DNA of 46,530 nt from Candidatus Nitrosopumilus sp. (GTDB lineage Archaea > Thermoproteota > Nitrososphaeria > Nitrososphaerales > Nitrosopumilaceae). The stretch lies in assembly GCF_028278985.1 (NCBI RefSeq), contig NZ_JANQTA010000007.1:1-46530 (forward strand), read 5' to 3'. The position numbers were made by a program, and so were the translations under genes. How positions within the stretch are numbered: position 1 is the stretch's first letter; each line of letters opens with the position of its first letter. The notes under the pieces were generated by a model. It saw nothing but the letters and a program-made list of their open reading frames with translations, was not told the origin of the DNA and did no database searches. Below, one piece after another: positions 30,939-38,618 of the stretch.

Positions 30939-31877
30939 ATGTCTTGTATTGAGGTAAGCCGTTTATCAAAATCATATGGATCTATCTCTGCCGTTAACAA
31001 AATTGAACTATCCGTTGAATCTGGACAAGTATTTGGATTTCTTGGTCCTAACGGTGCTGGAAAATCTACAACTATCAAGCTATTGACTACGCTAATTCCA
31101 CCTACATCAGGCTCAATGTGCATTCTTGGAATTGATGCAGTCAATAACCCCCTTCAAATTCGTCATAAAATCGGAGTAGTACTTCAACAACCTAGTTACG
31201 AGCCTACTCTCTCTGTTGAGAAATCCCTTGACAAGTATGGAATGATGTGGAATGTTCCTAAAATTGAAAGAAAAAAGAGACTTGAGCAACTTCTTGTAGA
31301 TTTTGATTTGAAAGAAATTCGAAAAAAACGAAATGAAGATCTTTCTATAGGACAACGAAGACGTGTTCAGGTTGCAAGAGAGTTTATGCATGATATGGAA
31401 CTTTTATTTTTAGATGAACCAACTGTTGGTCTAGATCCAAATGCAAGACGAAATCTTTTAGATTATTTGAAAAATAAAGTTAAGACAGGTTTAACAATTT
31501 TTTATACTACTCATATTTTATCTGAAGCTGAATATCTTTGTGATAAAATTGCAATTATAGATAAAGGAAAAATTATAACTGTTGATACTCCAGATGGTTT
31601 AAAATCAAAATTTGGCAATGAAAAAACTATTAAAATTCATCTAAATGAAGAAAGAAAAGAAATCATCTCATTTCTATCAAATATTGAAGATTGTAAAATT
31701 GATTTTGATAATGGAACAAATATTATTATTCATTCGGAAAAATCTGAATACATATTATTACAAATTTTGAAAATTTTGAATGATGAAGGAATAGAAATAG
31801 AGGATTTATCTGCAGTGCCAACAAATCTTGAAGACATATTTCTAAAAATGGTAAGAGAAAATGCATCCGATAATTAG
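30939..31877 (+). CDS. ABC-2 type exporter, ATP-binding subunit
   Basis: 312 residues. Walker A GPNGAGKST, Q-loop VVLQQPSYEPTLS, signature LSIGQRRRVQVARE (LSIGQ for LSGGQ), Walker B LLFLDEPTVGLDP and switch His in TTHILSEAEYLC. A C-terminal accessory domain of about 90 residues ends TNLEDIFLKMV. This is the DrrA/NatA-like subfamily that pairs with ABC-2 permeases for export. It overlaps the permease gene by 17 bases. The substrate is unknown. Confidence 0.95.
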   Translation: MSCIEVSRLSKSYGSISAVNKIELSVESGQVFGFLGPNGAGKSTTIKLLTTLIPPTSGSMCILGIDAVNNPLQIRHKIGVVLQQPSYEPTLSVEKSLDKYGMMWNVPKIERKKRLEQLLVDFDLKEIRKKRNEDLSIGQRRRVQVAREFMHDMELLFLDEPTVGLDPNARRNLLDYLKNKVKTGLTIFYTTHILSEAEYLCDKIAIIDKGKIITVDTPDGLKSKFGNEKTIKIHLNEERKEIISFLSNIEDCKIDFDNGTNIIIHSEKSEYILLQILKILNDEGIEIEDLSAVPTNLEDIFLKMVRENASDN

Positions 31878-32622
31878 ATTAGTAAATAGAAATCTCACAA
31901 TTTCTCTAAATCCTGGATTTTTAATATGGCAAGTAATTTTTCCACTAATCTACATTTTTGTTGCAGGATTTGCTTATGCACCTCTAATACAAAATGTACC
32001 ATTAGGTGCTAGAGACTTAGATTATCCTGCTTTTCTTGCATCGGGTATGATTGGATTTAACATAATGAATAGTACTCTTGTATCTGGAATAATAATTTGG
32101 AATGATAGACGTCATGGAATGTTTGAACAAATAATGTCTGGTCCCTTTACCAGAAGTCATTACATTCTTAGCAATATTTGTACAATAGGAATTGTTGGAC
32201 TGGTTAGTGCATCTTTAATTGCCTTAGTAGGCTATCCTGTATTTTTTGATTCAATTGAATTTTCACTAATTACTATACCCTTGATTGTTTTCGGTGCAAT
32301 CACTGGTTCAGTTTTATTTGGTTCCCTAGCTTCCATTATTTCGACAAGATTACGCTCAAGTGAAGGATTCAATGTAATTATCAATACTGTTTTTCTATTT
32401 TTTGCATTTGTAAGTACAGCATTTTATCCAGCAGAAGGTGCACCAGAACCTTTACGTTCAGCTTTCTATCTGAATCCCTTGACTTATCTGGTTGATGTGA
32501 TTCGAGCAGGAATCTTTGGTACATTTACAGAATTTGTATTTTATGAAATGATTGTTCTTTTAGCAATGGCTGCTGGATTGTTTATAATAGCATCTAAATT
32601 ATTAACAAAACTTGATTTCTAA
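31861..32622 (+). CDS. ABC-2 type exporter, permease subunit
   Basis: 253 residues with about six hydrophobic segments, beginning after IIRLVNRNLTISLNPGF with WQVIFPLIYIFVAGFAYAP. The family motif STAFYPAEGAPEPLRSAFYLNPLTYLVDVIRAGIF appears late, as in DrrB/NodJ-like permeases. It overlaps and pairs with the preceding ATPase. Its substrate is likely a lipid, glycan or drug-like compound; nothing in the sequence decides. Confidence 0.92.
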   Translation: MHPIIRLVNRNLTISLNPGFLIWQVIFPLIYIFVAGFAYAPLIQNVPLGARDLDYPAFLASGMIGFNIMNSTLVSGIIIWNDRRHGMFEQIMSGPFTRSHYILSNICTIGIVGLVSASLIALVGYPVFFDSIEFSLITIPLIVFGAITGSVLFGSLASIISTRLRSSEGFNVIINTVFLFFAFVSTAFYPAEGAPEPLRSAFYLNPLTYLVDVIRAGIFGTFTEFVFYEMIVLLAMAAGLFIIASKLLTKLDF

Positions 32623-32650
32623 TCCCTTCTTTAATTGAATTTTGATAAAG

Positions 32651-32723
32651 TAGCCCGAGGCAGATTCGAACTGCCGTCACGGGCTCCAAAGGCCCATATG
32701 CTTGACCTCTACACTATCGGGCT
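32651..32723 (-). tRNA. tRNA-Gln (TTG)
   Basis: Complete cloverleaf: acceptor AGCCCGA pairs with TCGGGCT, followed by discriminator A at 32651. The anticodon stem TGGGC/GCCCG (one wobble pair) holds the loop CTTTGGA, giving anticodon TTG. The T-arm GCAG.TTCGAAT.CTGC is intact. There is no intron and no encoded CCA. The first pair is A1-U72, the identity feature used by GatDE, which is encoded at 39480-42676. Confidence 0.93.
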
Positions 32724-32779: not shown

Positions 32780-33805
32780 TTATTGATTTATAATTTTGAC
32801 TAACAGTTCTATAGGACTATCCATAGAATTTACAATTTTTTTTATTCGTTTTTTATGACTTGTATCAGGCCTGTCAAATATCCTATTCATATGTCTAGCA
32901 ATTTTGGTTGGATTTGTTTCTCTTTTCAACATCTTTTTTTGAACTAAATAATTTTCAATAATGTTTGGAATAGCATTGTATGAAATTGTAGGTACACCTA
33001 ATAATGTAGATTCTGCAGTCATTGTACCTCCAGATCCAATAAAAACATCTGTTTTTTCTAGAAGTTGTTTTCCATCATATGACATTTTGATAATTTTTGC
33101 AGAATTTCCACAAATTTTTTTAAATTGCTCAATTTGTTTTGGGTATCTTCCTAAAATTAGAATATTTTCATTTTTAAATTCTGAAATAATTTTCTTTATA
33201 ATTGGAATAATAATATCTGATTTAGAAGTGTATGCAGCTTGTTCTTCCTCAATTCTTATTAAAATATTTTTTTTCTTTTTTGTAAATGGGATTCTATTTT
33301 GATTTTTCATTTTTCTTTTGATAGTTACAGCAGCATCAATTGCATTATATTGAATAATATTTTTTTCATTAATTCCATATTTTGAGAATTCTTTTTTTTG
33401 AATCATTTTTGGTATTAGTAATTTTTGAATTAGTGGTAATGTCAATCTCATTACTGCATCTGCATGGGGTGAATCGCAAAAAGCAATGTGTTTTATTCCT
33501 AAACCAAATGAAATCCGTGCAGCTTCTGGTGAACAATAACTTATAACAAGATCTGGAGAGAATTTTTTTATTTTACTATATAGTCCAGACATTCTTTTGA
33601 TACTTTCATTTAATTTCTCATTTCTATCGCCTCCTCCGTGTCTTCCAACCACTGAAATTTTGAAATCTCGTATTTTCGCAATTCTTATGACTTCACGATA
33701 TTCTCTTGAAGTGCATAAAATCTCATGTTTTTTGCCTAGCTTTTCAATTATTGGCTCCGAAAACAACAATTGCTTTGGAGTTAGAATATCTATCCAAATT
33801 TTCAA
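32780..33805 (-). CDS. DUF354 family protein, GT-B-like fold
   Basis: 341 residues. Typical DUF354 segments: MKIWIDILTPKQLLFSEPII at the N-terminus, GRHGGG, IKKFSPDLVISYCSPEAAR, AFCDSPHADAV, and a C-terminal half with FIGSGGTMTAESTLLGVPTISYN. That last motif resembles the sugar-nucleotide-binding part of GT-B glycosyltransferases and UDP-GlcNAc 2-epimerases, so a role in surface glycan synthesis is plausible. It is divergent from the dehydrogenase-like gene at 33869. The protein is strikingly Lys/Ile-rich. Confidence 0.82.
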   Translation of the reverse strand: MKIWIDILTPKQLLFSEPIIEKLGKKHEILCTSREYREVIRIAKIRDFKISVVGRHGGGDRNEKLNESIKRMSGLYSKIKKFSPDLVISYCSPEAARISFGLGIKHIAFCDSPHADAVMRLTLPLIQKLLIPKMIQKKEFSKYGINEKNIIQYNAIDAAVTIKRKMKNQNRIPFTKKKKNILIRIEEEQAAYTSKSDIIIPIIKKIISEFKNENILILGRYPKQIEQFKKICGNSAKIIKMSYDGKQLLEKTDVFIGSGGTMTAESTLLGVPTISYNAIPNIIENYLVQKKMLKRETNPTKIARHMNRIFDRPDTSHKKRIKKIVNSMDSPIELLVKIINQ

Positions 33806-33868: not shown

Positions 33869-35008
33869 ATGGGGGGAGCAAAAGTGGTTGTTTATGGATT
33901 AAGTACTGAAGGATATGCAATTGCATCTCAAATGGCAATCAAAGGAGCAGATGTCTACATAATAGACGAATCAACTCCTTCTGCAATCTCTTTAAAGGCT
34001 GAAATTGCCAAAACTTATCCAAATGTTTCTTCTCTAAAAGAAGACGAACCATTGTTAGCAATGGAGCCAATTGATGTTGCAATCTCAAAAGCTCAATATC
34101 TTTTCTTTACCCCTAGACTCAGAAAAACTGGCCAAGACATCAAAACTGAAATTCACTCAAAATTCAAAGATGCTGTTTCTTCATTAAAAAAGAAAAGTGC
34201 TGTGGTTTTTACATTACCAACTGGGTTTGGTGGAAATAATGAAAATATCTCTTTACTAGAACATGTAACTGGTCTTGAAGTAGGAAAACAAATTTCCTAC
34301 TTCTATTATCCATTAGAAGATCCTAATCAACAACCAAAAATCATTGGATCATTTAATGGAAAAGAAGATTCAACACTTGCTGAATTATTAACTACTGGGA
34401 AAAAAGAGAAGAAATTTGTTGCAATATCTTCATCAGAACATTTTCATGCAATTGATGTTCTTTCAAGATTTTCTAGCCTATGTAGTGTTTTAGAAGTTTG
34501 CAAATACGCTCAAGATGATATTACAAAAAATGATTTGTCTTCAGATGATTTCCAAAACATCTTTTTAGATAAAATGGTTGGTGGTCTGTTTGATCTTAAG
34601 TCTCTAGGCTCATCTTTTGAAGGTGCTAATACTTTGATGTATTTGATTAATGGAAGTGTCAAAGGAATTGATGGATATATCAAACGTTTAATTGATGAAA
34701 TTCGTTCTACATTAAAGAAAAATGATCTAAAAGCTAGTAGAACTAAGATTGCATTATCATGGACTCTAGATCAACATTCAATGCGTGGTGACAAAATTGA
34801 AATGCTACAAAATCTAACATCTAGGTTACGAGATTATATTGGAGATGTCGAAGCTTATGAAGATCCAAACTTTGATCTCTTCCATTCAGATAAAACAACA
34901 ATTGTGGTAGCTTGCTCTCAAACCGATTTTGATCATATTGAAAAAACAAAACAAGATTCTGATTTAATTATAGTTAAAGCAAATCCTTTGTGTGAAACTA
35001 TACAATAA
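33869..35008 (+). CDS. Nucleotide-sugar-dehydrogenase-like protein lacking a visible catalytic Cys motif
   Basis: 379 residues laid out like UDP-glucose/GDP-mannose dehydrogenases. An N-terminal Rossmann fold has VVVYGLSTEGYAIASQMAIKGADVYIIDE. A TPR-like dinucleotide segment (FFTPRLRKTGQDIKTEI) and VVFTLPTGFGGN follow. The C-terminal domain has IALSWTLDQHSMRGDKIEML (about residues 292-312), matching the GLAxKPxTDDxRxSP region. The active-site motif GGxCxPKD is not visible: the matching area reads SLGSSFEGANTLMYL. The only mid-protein cysteines lie in LCSVLEVCKYA. It may be a degenerate dehydrogenase or an NAD-binding scaffold. It is divergent from the DUF354 gene and precedes grpE. Confidence 0.65.
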   Translation: MGGAKVVVYGLSTEGYAIASQMAIKGADVYIIDESTPSAISLKAEIAKTYPNVSSLKEDEPLLAMEPIDVAISKAQYLFFTPRLRKTGQDIKTEIHSKFKDAVSSLKKKSAVVFTLPTGFGGNNENISLLEHVTGLEVGKQISYFYYPLEDPNQQPKIIGSFNGKEDSTLAELLTTGKKEKKFVAISSSEHFHAIDVLSRFSSLCSVLEVCKYAQDDITKNDLSSDDFQNIFLDKMVGGLFDLKSLGSSFEGANTLMYLINGSVKGIDGYIKRLIDEIRSTLKKNDLKASRTKIALSWTLDQHSMRGDKIEMLQNLTSRLRDYIGDVEAYEDPNFDLFHSDKTTIVVACSQTDFDHIEKTKQDSDLIIVKANPLCETIQ

Positions 35009-35041: not shown

Positions 35042-35593
35042 ATGACTGAAGAAGAAAATTCTGATGAAATTCCAGTTAATGTTGTTTCAAATGAAAATAG
35101 TGATGATAATAAACTCCAATCTTCTGAAAATGATTGTGATGAAATATCAAAAGAATTAGAGTCTGTAAAAGAAAAAAACTCAGAATACGAAGAAAAACTT
35201 AAACATGTTTTGGCAGATTTTCAAAATCTTTCAAAAAAAACTCAGTCAGATATTGAAAACGGTGTTAATGCAAAAGTTGATGATTTTATTTTAGATTTCT
35301 TAAAAATTTATGATGATTTTGTTAGAGCAAAGCAAGTGTTTACCGAAAGTAATGTTGAAGCTGAAGGATTAGATGGGATTCTGAAAAATATGGATTCTTT
35401 GCTTCTAAAATATCAAATCAAGCCCATTGATGCACTGGGAGAAATTTTTGATCCAAATTATCATGAAGCTATATCTGTTATCAATGATAGTGACCTGGAT
35501 GATGGCACTATTACTAAGGAGATCAGGAAAGGATATATTTCTCAAACTAGGGTCATAAGACCAACATTAGTAGAAATTTCAAAAAAAGGATGA
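35042..35593 (+). CDS. grpE: GrpE nucleotide-exchange factor
   Basis: 183 residues. An acidic, disordered N-terminus (MTEEENSDEIP...) leads into a long coiled coil (about 40-85, KELESVKEKNSEYEEKLKHVLADFQNL). The beta domain ends with FDPNYHEAISVIND and a GYISQTRVIRPTLVEIS segment, the GrpE signature. It releases ADP from DnaK. It is first in the grpE-dnaK-dnaJ operon, with dnaK six bases downstream. Confidence 0.95.
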   Translation: MTEEENSDEIPVNVVSNENSDDNKLQSSENDCDEISKELESVKEKNSEYEEKLKHVLADFQNLSKKTQSDIENGVNAKVDDFILDFLKIYDDFVRAKQVFTESNVEAEGLDGILKNMDSLLLKYQIKPIDALGEIFDPNYHEAISVINDSDLDDGTITKEIRKGYISQTRVIRPTLVEISKKG

Positions 35594-35599
35594 TAAAAT

Positions 35600-37486
35600 A
35601 TGGCTAAAGTTATAGGAATTGATTTAGGAACTAGTAATTCTGCTGCAGCAGTAATGATGGGTGGGAAACCAACTATTATTCCAGCTGCTGAAGGTGCTAC
35701 GGTAGGTGGAAAGGCATTCCCCTCTGTTGTAGCATTTTCTAAGGAAGGTGAGTTACTAGTTGGCGAACCAGCAAGAAGACAAGCTGTTACTAATCCTGAT
35801 AATACAATTGTAGCAGCTAAAAGAAAAATGGGTTCTGATCACGTTTTTAAAATTCAAGACAAAGATTACAAACCACAACAAATCTCAGCATATATTTTAC
35901 AAAAAATCAAAAAAGATGCAGAAGCATTTGTTGGAGAAGCTGTGGAAAAAGCTGTCATTACTGTTCCTGCATATTTTGATGATAATCAACGTCAAGCAAC
36001 AAAAGATGCTGGTACTATTGCAGGTTTGGATGTTGTAAGAATAATTAATGAACCTACTGCTGCATCTCTTGCATTTGGATTAGACAAAGCAAAAGAAGAC
36101 ATGAAAATTTTGGTTTTTGACTTTGGTGGAGGTACTTTAGATGTAACAATTATGGAAATGGGTGGAGGTGTATTTGAAGTAATGAGTACATCTGGTGATA
36201 CTCAATTAGGTGGTACTGATATGGATAAGGTCATTATTGATTACATTGTAGATGAATTCAAGAAAAAAGAAGGTGTTGATTTAACACAAGATTCTACTGC
36301 AATGACAAGAATCAGAGAAGCAGCAGAAAAAGCCAAAATTGAATTATCTACAGTTATGGAAACTGATGTTAATTTACCATTTATTGCACATGATCCTTCA
36401 AGTGGAGCAAAAAATCTAGAATTAAGAATTACTAGAGCAAAACTTGATGAATTAATTGGGCCAATCGTTGACCGCTGTAAGCCTTCTATTCTTAAAGCAT
36501 TAGAAGATGCAAAACTATCTCCATCAGACGTACACAAAATTGTGATGGTTGGAGGTCCGACTAGAATTCCTTTGGTACAGAAATTTGTTAGTGAAGTTAT
36601 CGGAAAAACAGCAGAATCTGGTGTTGATCCTATGGAAGCAGTTGCTATGGGTGCTGCCATTCAGGCTGGTATTATTGCAGGTGATGTTGCAAGTGATATT
36701 GTATTACTTGATGTAACGCCTTTAACTTTGGGTATTGAGACCTTAGGAGGAGTAAGAGAGCCTCTTATAGAAAGAAATACCACAATTCCTACTTCTAAAA
36801 GTAAAGTATTCACTACAGCAGCTGATAATCAAACTGCTGTAACAATTCACGTTGTTCAAGGTGAACGCCCAATGGCTACAGATAACGTTTCTTTGGGGAG
36901 CTTCAATCTAACTGATTTACCACCTGCACCACGTGGGGTTCCACAAATTGAAGTTAAATTTGACATTGATGCAAATGGAATCATTAATGTAACTGCAAAA
37001 GATCTTGGAACTCAAAAGGAAGCAAAGATTACAATTGAATCTTCTTCAAAACTTTCTGAAGAAGAAATTGAAAAACTAAAAGAAGATGCAGAAAAATTCT
37101 CTGATGAAGACAATAAAAAGAAAGAAAAAATTGATCTTAAGAATGAAGCTGAAAGTTATATCTACACTACAGAAAAATTAGTTAATCATGATTTGAAAGA
37201 TAAAATTTCTCAAGAACAAGGAATCAAAGTAACTGATGCAGTAAAAGAGGTCAAAGAAGTTCTTGATAGAGAACCTGAAGAATTAAAACCAAAACTAGAA
37301 GCCTTACAAACTCTTGTTAATGAAATTACAACTGAACTTTACAAAAATGCATCCCCTCCACCTGGTACTGAAGGACAAGCAGGTGCTGAAGGACAAGCAG
37401 GTGCTGAAGGACAAGCAGGTGCTGAAGGACAACAGTCTAGTGAACAAACATCTGAATCTTCTTCTAATGAGAACAAGACCAACTGA
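35600..37486 (+). CDS. dnaK: Hsp70 chaperone DnaK
   Basis: 628 residues. The ATPase domain has [52 protein letters not shown] and [10 protein letters not shown]. The substrate domain begins [16 protein letters not shown], followed by the helical lid and a Gly/Ala/Glu/Gln repeat tail (GAEGQA). The N-terminal lobe lacks the roughly 24-residue insertion of Gram-negative DnaK (short form, as in Firmicutes and archaea). Archaeal hsp70 is generally regarded as acquired from bacteria. GGATGAT before the start may serve as ribosome site. Confidence 0.97.
37364..37435 (+). repeat. Four 18-bp tandem repeats in the dnaK tail
   Basis: Units at 37364, 37382, 37400 and 37418 encode G-T/A-E-G-Q-A (the last ends QQ). 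The central two are identical in DNA. Such tails are variable in Hsp70s, and the copy number may vary by slippage without shifting the frame. Confidence 0.92.
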
Positions 37487-37532: not shown

Positions 37533-38618
37533 ATGGCTGCAAAACGTGATTATTACGAAGTTTTAGGAGTTTCAAAAACTTCTTCAGCTGATGAAATAAA
37601 AAAACAGTATAGAAAATTAGCATTAAAATTTCATCCAGATAGAAATAATTCTTCTGAAGCTGGAGAACATTTTAAAGAAATCTCTGAAGCTTATGCAGTA
37701 TTATCTGATACCGAAAAAAGACAAATTTATGATCAGCATGGTCATGCTGGAGTAGACGGAAGATATAGCAATGAAGATATCTTTCAAGGTGCACGTGGAG
37801 ATTTTAGCGATATTTTTGGTCAAGGTGGGGGTGGTTTCGAATCAATTTTTGAATCAATCTTCGGTCGTGGCGGAGGAGGTTTTGGATTTAATCAACAACG
37901 GGGTTCTGACATTCTATATGAGACATCTGTATCCTTAGAAGATGTTCTTCACGGAAAACAAATGGAAATTGAATTACAAAAACAAATTGAATGTGATACC
38001 TGTCATGGTTCAGGATGTAAACCTGGGACAAATAAGAAGACTTGTGGAGCTTGTAATGGTCAAGGACAAGTAAGACAAACTAGGAATATGGGGTTTGCAT
38101 CCTTTGTCACTGCAGCTCCTTGTTCATCATGCAGAGGTCAAGGATCAATCATTGAAACACCATGTGAAGAATGTAAAGGACGAGGAAAGAAAAAGGGCTC
38201 CAAGACAGTTACATTTGAGATTCCACCAGGAATAGACTCTGGAGATTATACTGTTCCTAATGAAGGAAATGAAATTCCAAATGGATCAAATGGTGATCTT
38301 ATTGTACGAGTTAGAGTTCAATCTCATTCTCAATTCAAACGAGATGGTAAAGACATCTTTTATGATCATGATGTATCTATGGTAGATGCTGCTTTGGGTT
38401 GTGATATTGTTGTGCCTACATTGCAAGGTACAGAAAAGATTAAGGTTGATTCTGGTAGCCAGCCTAACACCATAATAAAATTAAAAGGAAAAGGGGTTCC
38501 TCATATCAATTCTAGAGGTAAAGGAGATCAGTATGTTAGGATTGTAGTTAACGTTCCTAGAAAGCTCAACAAACATCAAAAAAACCTTCTTGATGAATTC
38601 CAAAAATCTTCAGAGTAG
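37533..38618 (+). CDS. dnaJ: Hsp40 co-chaperone DnaJ (type I)
   Basis: 361 residues. A J domain with the HPD motif (KFHPDRNN) and a G/F-rich linker ([22 protein letters not shown]) come first. Four CxxCxGxG-type zinc repeats follow ([31 protein letters not shown] form), then the two substrate-binding beta domains. It stimulates DnaK ATPase and presents substrates. It follows dnaK by 46 bases, with GTGATGAT just upstream. Confidence 0.97.

Follow-up and report, generated by a model that had tools for sequence, protein, structure and literature searches.

The question raised by this locus is what a protein does that appears to have the fold of a nucleotide-sugar dehydrogenase of the UGDH type but lacks its catalytic residues. 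The gene (33869..35008, plus strand) lies in a 46,530-nucleotide stretch of DNA from Candidatus Nitrosopumilus sp., hereafter the window, and encodes a Cys-less, UGDH-like protein of 379 residues with an ATG start. The analysis established by computation to which family it belongs, what fold it is predicted to have, that the catalytic set is lost, how conservation is distributed, and which genes surround it.

Homology and Predicted Fold

The protein gave no Pfam or NCBIfam match above cut-off; none of PF03721, PF00984, and PF03720 was listed for it at the Pfam gathering cut-off, and PF03721 matched only one of 28 family members (E 0.2). This 28-member set was obtained by leaving out sequences shorter than 330 residues or at least 80% identical to a kept member. 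The closest 80 loci retained for the protein were mainly Nitrosopumilus and Nitrosarchaeum records. A phmmer search of the PDB with the single sequence returned weak, unrelated matches only, and the profile of the 28 members reached two sequences only, 4r16 (UDP-ManNAcA dehydrogenase, E 0.0052) and an NDP-GalNAcA dehydrogenase (E 0.07). When profiles were compared with each other, the family matched 10 archaeal UGDHs with probability 97 and E 1e-10, though only over residues 1-212. Because hhalign found nothing between the C-terminal halves, similarity to UGDH was undetectable by sequence in that half and the match there comes from the predicted fold alone; for the same reason, C-domain positions relative to UGDH are uncertain and the MAFFT columns there are untrustworthy. 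The original prediction that both the NAD-binding and the C-terminal halves follow UGDH thus stood by profile and fold for the former and by predicted fold only for the latter.

The AlphaFold2 model, built with the 28 family members, had a pLDDT of 90.0 and a pTM of 0.88. In a Foldseek comparison with the PDB, the best 50 rows were all UGDH-type enzymes, with a best E-value of about 1e-10 and TM-scores by query length of around 0.52-0.66 (0.66 for 4r16). VIA-align, which re-examined the matches already found by Foldseek, aligned 355 residues with 4r16, the P. horikoshii UDP-ManNAc dehydrogenase (Z 23.7, rmsd 4.0 Å); ranks 1-40 of its best 50 were UGDH-type, and the first other enzyme had a Z of 14.4. 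The dehydrogenase fold proposed earlier was therefore borne out by UGDH-type matches over the whole length, and the protein is predicted to adopt the three-domain Rossmann - helical - Rossmann fold of UGDH. Its likeness to 4r16 consists of this fold over residues 4-376 and the profile similarity of the N-terminal half, at 15% identity over the structural alignment, whereas the Cys, Lys, Asn, and PE-motif Glu are missing from the window protein and its NAD loop is altered.

Two other assignments were rejected. Beta-hydroxyacid dehydrogenases carry a catalytic Lys on the central helix; they reached a Z of only 14.4 over 237-242 residues, and the Lys is absent from 54/54 family members. An artefact of sequencing or reading frame was set aside because the matches listed contain no internal stops and dozens of genomes have close orthologues. 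In one single-contig genome the family protein is encoded in two overlapping pieces (G174:C1:126810-127938), probably as a result of a local frameshift.

Loss of the Catalytic Positions

Residue counts refer to a 54-member set from the window's order and other orders of the class, with four duplicate loci left out; three of its sequences (L182, L183, and L184) hardly differ from one another, and L181 is truncated. The UGDH alignment comprised those 10 of 23 UGDH loci that passed the motif patterns of the script, the other 13 not thereby being shown to be Cys-less. Comparison UGDHs had the Cys and Lys in 16/16, the Asn in 11/16, and the PE-motif Glu in 13/16; that the last two vary even among UGDHs counts against the pseudoenzyme reading discussed below.

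The catalytic Cys, Lys, Asn, and Glu of UGDH each have a role in the 6-dehydrogenase reaction. As had been noticed originally for the window protein, the catalytic motif is missing: GGxCxP was found in none of the 54 family members, and the segment that holds GGxCxPKD in UGDH (34505..34633, plus strand) shows an alignment gap at the Cys column. A catalytic Cys hidden elsewhere in this segment was rejected, since the window protein has no Cys in residues 213-348 and the 17/54 members that do have one there carry it at positions that vary and always lie outside the motif. The Glu of the UGDH AExxK motif was kept in 54/54 members (E190...H193; 34436..34447, plus strand) and the Lys was replaced in all of them, by His in 25, Tyr in 21, Phe in 6, Leu in 1, and Cys in 1. 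Replacement was equally complete (54/54 in each case) for the Asn four positions after the catalytic Lys and for the PE-motif Glu, which follows a conserved Pro. The NAD loop is degenerate (GLSTEGY, residues 10-16; 33896..33916, plus strand), the second Gly of GxGxxG being Ser in 48 and Thr in 6 of the 54 members, with Glu14 present in 53/54. With the Cys, Lys, Asn, and PE-motif Glu gone, the UGDH reaction should not run in the usual way, and judged from its sequence the protein should be unable to perform it.

Conserved Positions and the Ligand Cleft

Conservation in the family is concentrated at other sites. D33-E34, at the end of strand 2 (33965..33970, plus strand), was found as Asp in 54/54 and Glu in 52/54 members, at what we take to be the ribose-binding position of Rossmann folds. 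A P82-[KR]-x-[RK] motif, PRLR in the window protein (34112..34123, plus strand), lies near the UGDH VPTP loop, with P82 and a Lys or Arg at 83 in 54/54 members and a Lys or Arg at 85 in 52/54. The C-domain contains a W298-x-x-D301...R306 motif (WTLDQHSMR; 34760..34786, plus strand), in which Trp, Asp, and Arg were present in 53/54, 49/54, and 46/54 members, respectively. C349, at the end of a C-domain strand (34913..34915, plus strand), is the sole strongly conserved Cys (49/53 members) and lies outside the segment that carries the UGDH Cys.

The 20 most conserved positions include G10, S12, E14, D33, E34, P82, P117, P148, E190, W298, D301, and C349. Ten of these 20 fall at most three residues after a predicted strand, vs. 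2.06 expected, and in a circular-shift test the observed mean was reached by 3 of 379 shifts, the observed one included. In a two-Rossmann fold, the loops after strands line the ligand cleft; the concentration of conservation after strands therefore suggests that the ligand cleft is under constraint.

Gene Neighborhood

In the window, the gene is divergent from a DUF354 gene (32780..33805, minus strand). The original prediction had credited this neighbor with a GT-like motif; its DUF354 membership was confirmed (E 1.6e-43), but its GT-B-type matches (LpxB, PseG, Epimerase_2) were all below cut-off. Downstream lie grpE (35042..35593, plus strand; PF01025, 4.6e-39), dnaK (35600..37486, plus strand; PF00012, 1.7e-217), and dnaJ (37533..38618, plus strand; PF00226, PF00684, PF01556). 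ARAGORN placed a tRNA-Gln (anticodon ttg; 32650-32723, minus strand) between DUF354 and an ABC-2 permease-like gene. The latter and an ABC transporter ATPase-like gene, both named by eye, form a pair just upstream (30939-32622) that is retained in several Nitrosopumilus-type loci.

The window locus has no 3-dehydrogenase, acetyltransferase, or GT4 neighbors; the corresponding compact sugar cluster lies on contig C30 of the same genome (L256, G000:C30, 8030-10927) and contains a GT4 gene, a small membrane-protein-like ORF, an acetyltransferase gene, a Trm112-like gene, and an oxidoreductase gene resembling UDP-GlcNAc 3-dehydrogenase. A class IV aminotransferase-like gene lies together with these on C30, its domain having been observed in a relative. 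The Trm112-like gene is an odd member of a sugar cluster.

The context of glycan synthesis proposed for the protein was upheld, with much plainer signs of it in other lineages than in the window. We compared 48 family loci, picked for diversity rather than at random, phylogenetically non-independent and in some cases cut by contig ends, with true UGDH loci of the same order as a control (20 loci, reduced to 19 because L302 gave no UGDH call; several cut by contig ends). Within four genes, a Gfo/Idh oxidoreductase resembling 3-dehydrogenases was present at 27/48 family loci (adjoining in 23), DUF354 at 22/48 (adjoining in 19), a hexapeptide acetyltransferase at 18, a GT4 transferase at 12, and a Trm112-like gene at 9; the corresponding counts at the 19 true UGDH loci were 0, 1, 0, 0, and 2. 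The best NCBIfam model for the oxidoreductase was archaeal UDP-GlcNAc 3-dehydrogenase, at 251-266 bits for three proteins, below the cut-off of 450. At 10/48 loci, in taxonomic families f1, f2, and f3, grpE-dnaK directly followed the gene, and in f2 the gene preceded grpE-dnaK-dnaJ at three loci. At one f2 locus (L116), the upstream neighbors, as read by eye, were a riboflavin-type reductase-like gene and other non-glycan genes.

Distribution and Relation to True UGDH

The protein was found in 56/61 genomes when the window's own genome and 60 relatives were searched, and in 42/42 of those of good quality (completeness of 90% or more, contamination of 5% or less). In a sample of the class it was detected at E<=0.001 in 281/300 genomes and in 211/213 of good quality, the weakest best E-value among these matches being 1.1e-11; within taxonomic family f68, 0/11 genomes had a match. 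True UGDH, searched with PF03721 at E<=0.001, was found in 30/61 genomes (24/42 of good quality), and above the PF03721 cut-off in 23/61. The window's genome has one true UGDH with the Cys motif, on contig C19. At the same threshold true UGDH was undetected in 18/42 good-quality genomes, although all 42 carry the protein. That UGDH went undetected in so many carriers argues that the protein is not simply a UGDH regulator: a UGDH-dependent regulator was rejected because UGDH is patchy and the protein is not, and the original suggestion of a regulatory paralogue, taken as one that regulates UGDH, was not supported.

Class-wide, the protein was found in 281, DUF354 in 273, and the oxidoreductase in 253 of 300 genomes, at thresholds that differ (E<=0.001, E<=1e-10, and E<=1e-60, respectively); with this difference in thresholds, the protein is retained in ammonia-oxidizing archaea no less widely than the enzymes of the pathway. 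By eye, we counted at least 13 genomes with the protein in which no close oxidoreductase (E<=1e-60) and no DUF354 (E<=1e-10) was detected. Among them are five g2 genomes (family f2), one of which is single-contig and 99% complete, and three small g134 genomes; some of the others may reflect assembly gaps. Two f2/g2 genomes do hold an oxidoreductase, at 33% identity. These carriers with no partner detected argue against an obligate subunit of the 3-dehydrogenase or of DUF354, and they point either to a function wider than this pair or to a third partner.

Cys-Less Relatives Outside the Class

Outside the class, 43 genomes gave matches, of which 17 matches were inspected together with one second match in the window's taxonomic family. 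Of these 18 weaker matches, 11 lacked the motif and 7 had the Cys. The Cys-less relatives in the phylum, of about 390-470 residues, formed two groups and one single protein; they have no GGxCxP, have lost the Lys, and have kept the Glu of AExxK. An oxidoreductase was the immediate neighbor in 13/14 of their loci, and the fourteenth had DUF354 and a Trm112-like gene alongside. Unlike the window protein, 4/4 relatives tested were above the PF03721 cut-off.

The first group has about 440-470 residues. Its two tested members were above the cut-offs of PF03721 and PF03720 and just below that of PF00984, and one member scored 176.7 against 189.8 on the general nucleotide-sugar dehydrogenase model. 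Sugar-phosphate mutase and nucleotidyltransferase genes precede the gene in this group (by Pfam at one locus, by eye at others). In the second group, of about 393-411 residues, the NAD site no longer has its first Gly or the strand-2 Asp. One relative group keeps parts of the NAD loop. Two second-group proteins of 393 residues from another class (L287, 7268-8446; L288, 7111-8289) adjoin GT4, DUF354, and 3-dehydrogenase genes, and a GrpE gene lies a few genes away in this group (Pfam, one locus). In an unrooted tree, UGDHs and the Cys-less L271 were set apart from the other Cys-less groups with a support of 72, which leaves one vs. several losses undecided; a single origin of these relatives with the window family is weakly supported by this tree.

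Possible Role of the Protein

The evidence leans toward a scaffold or pseudoenzyme, one half of the original suggestion of a scaffold or a new reaction. We tentatively regard the protein, at close to even chances, as a UGDH-derived ligand-binding pseudoenzyme that serves the synthesis of UDP-HexNAc glycan precursors; its ligand, partner, regulation, and lack of activity are what we infer. The ancestor would have been a nucleotide-sugar 6-dehydrogenase of the UDP-GlcNAc/UDP-ManNAc dehydrogenase type. Since the fold and a constrained cleft between the two Rossmann domains appear to have been retained, the protein most likely still binds a nucleotide-type ligand, the candidates being sugar nucleotides of the UDP-HexNAc type, adenine nucleotides, or both. 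It most likely works in UDP-GlcNAc-derived glycan precursor synthesis, in the place that WbpA has in Wbp-type pathways, where it would assist neighboring enzymes without catalysis of its own or regulate them in response to a ligand, with the Gfo/Idh-type UDP-HexNAc 3-dehydrogenase and/or DUF354 as candidate partners.

In the Wbp pathways as outlined in PMC10622841, the 6-dehydrogenase WbpA precedes a 3-dehydrogenase, an aminotransferase, an acetyltransferase, and a 2-epimerase, and is the UDP-GlcNAc 6-dehydrogenase of the UDP-ManNAc3NAcA pathway. The likeness lies in the slot of the gene, which in many lineages is beside 3-dehydrogenase-like, acetyltransferase, and DUF354 genes. WbpA, however, is an active NAD-dependent dehydrogenase, whereas the window protein is devoid of the catalytic set; no WbpE-type aminotransferase was identified adjoining the gene, although some clusters hold a class IV aminotransferase-like gene, and for the 2-epimerase role DUF354 is only putative. 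A 2015 study predicted DUF354 to be a glycosyltransferase, yet with very few catalytic residues conserved (PMC4520260), which makes the role of DUF354 itself doubtful.

Table 1 of a 2025 glycoproteomics paper (PMC12153357) lists, for N. piranensis and Ns. viennensis, homologues of Agl17 (acetyltransferase), Agl19 (oxidoreductase), and AglH (GT4); cluster partners of our gene belong to these three families. The N. piranensis locus tags given there (Agl17 RS03125, Agl19 RS03135, AglH RS03115) are spaced in a way that suggests the same cluster or gene order. In that paper, homologues of the Agl18 aminotransferase and the Agl21 2-epimerase are at other loci, and none of the Table 1 entries compared was recognized as our protein; its section 13 reports no definitive N-glycosylation for Np. 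piranensis, which counts against our reading, as does the location of the sugar cluster on a separate contig in the window's genome. The S-layer of the marine ammonia oxidizer N. maritimus, in the account of PMC11153153, is glycan-decorated (17 glycans per monomer) and binds ammonium, the chemical structure of the glycan being unresolved in that study. In the open-access literature searched, we found no description of a Cys-lacking archaeal UGDH or of a UGDH pseudoenzyme.

A further argument against a pseudoenzyme is that the near-invariant D33, E190, W298, and C349, together with H/Y193, would equally suit a changed chemistry. The protein could then be an active enzyme, a cysteine-independent sugar-nucleotide oxidoreductase or epimerase that works through the His or Tyr at the old Lys position (46/54 members), possibly with C349 (49/53), D301, and E14 as helpers. 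Several near-invariant positions shared class-wide and clustered after strands fit such a rebuilt site, and binding of a dinucleotide by D33-E34 together with the basic P-[KR]-x-[RK] motif is still conceivable. We nevertheless consider this new reaction somewhat unlikely, though the main rival: the second Gly of GxGxxG is gone in 54/54 members, with Glu14 within the loop; His and Tyr are not interchangeable as bases, and 8/54 members have Phe, Leu, or Cys instead; C349 lies outside the UGDH Cys segment; and in one group of relatives the first Gly has disappeared along with the strand-2 Asp, as would be expected of non-catalytic proteins. That the catalysis of a true nucleotide-sugar dehydrogenase persists, with its Cys supplied by another segment, we hold to be very improbable. 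C349, the one strongly conserved Cys, does follow a C-domain strand, but 54/54 members have also lost the catalytic Lys, Asn, and Glu, and residues 213-348 of the window protein contain no Cys.

Neither the pseudoenzyme nor a new reaction explains the carriers in which neither main partner was detected, and such genomes, in which the protein is kept with 3-dehydrogenase and DUF354 undetected, would suit a role outside glycan synthesis, e.g., as a nucleotide-responsive factor of the grpE-dnaK-dnaJ region, with the glycan neighborhood as an ancestral leftover. The grpE-dnaK genes that directly follow at 10/48 loci in f1, f2, and f3 point the same way, as does a lineage of another class with grpE (one locus tested) and dnaK (two others, by eye) a few genes off. 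Co-location with chaperone genes is, however, often functionally meaningless, and the 3-dehydrogenase-like neighbor turns up repeatedly, in deep lineages as well as next to the Cys-less relatives, so that we judge this role improbable.

For the Thermoproteota as a whole, it is possible, if rather doubtful, that the widespread Cys-less homologues beside a UDP-HexNAc 3-dehydrogenase are non-catalytic effectors, or a new cysteine-independent enzyme, of lipid-linked glycan synthesis. A protein that has no curated family annotation, was detected in almost every genome sampled from the class, and has lost its active site is a defined target. If it is a pseudoenzyme, a whole lineage would have turned a dehydrogenase into a partner protein; if it is active, it would carry out a new sugar-nucleotide reaction.
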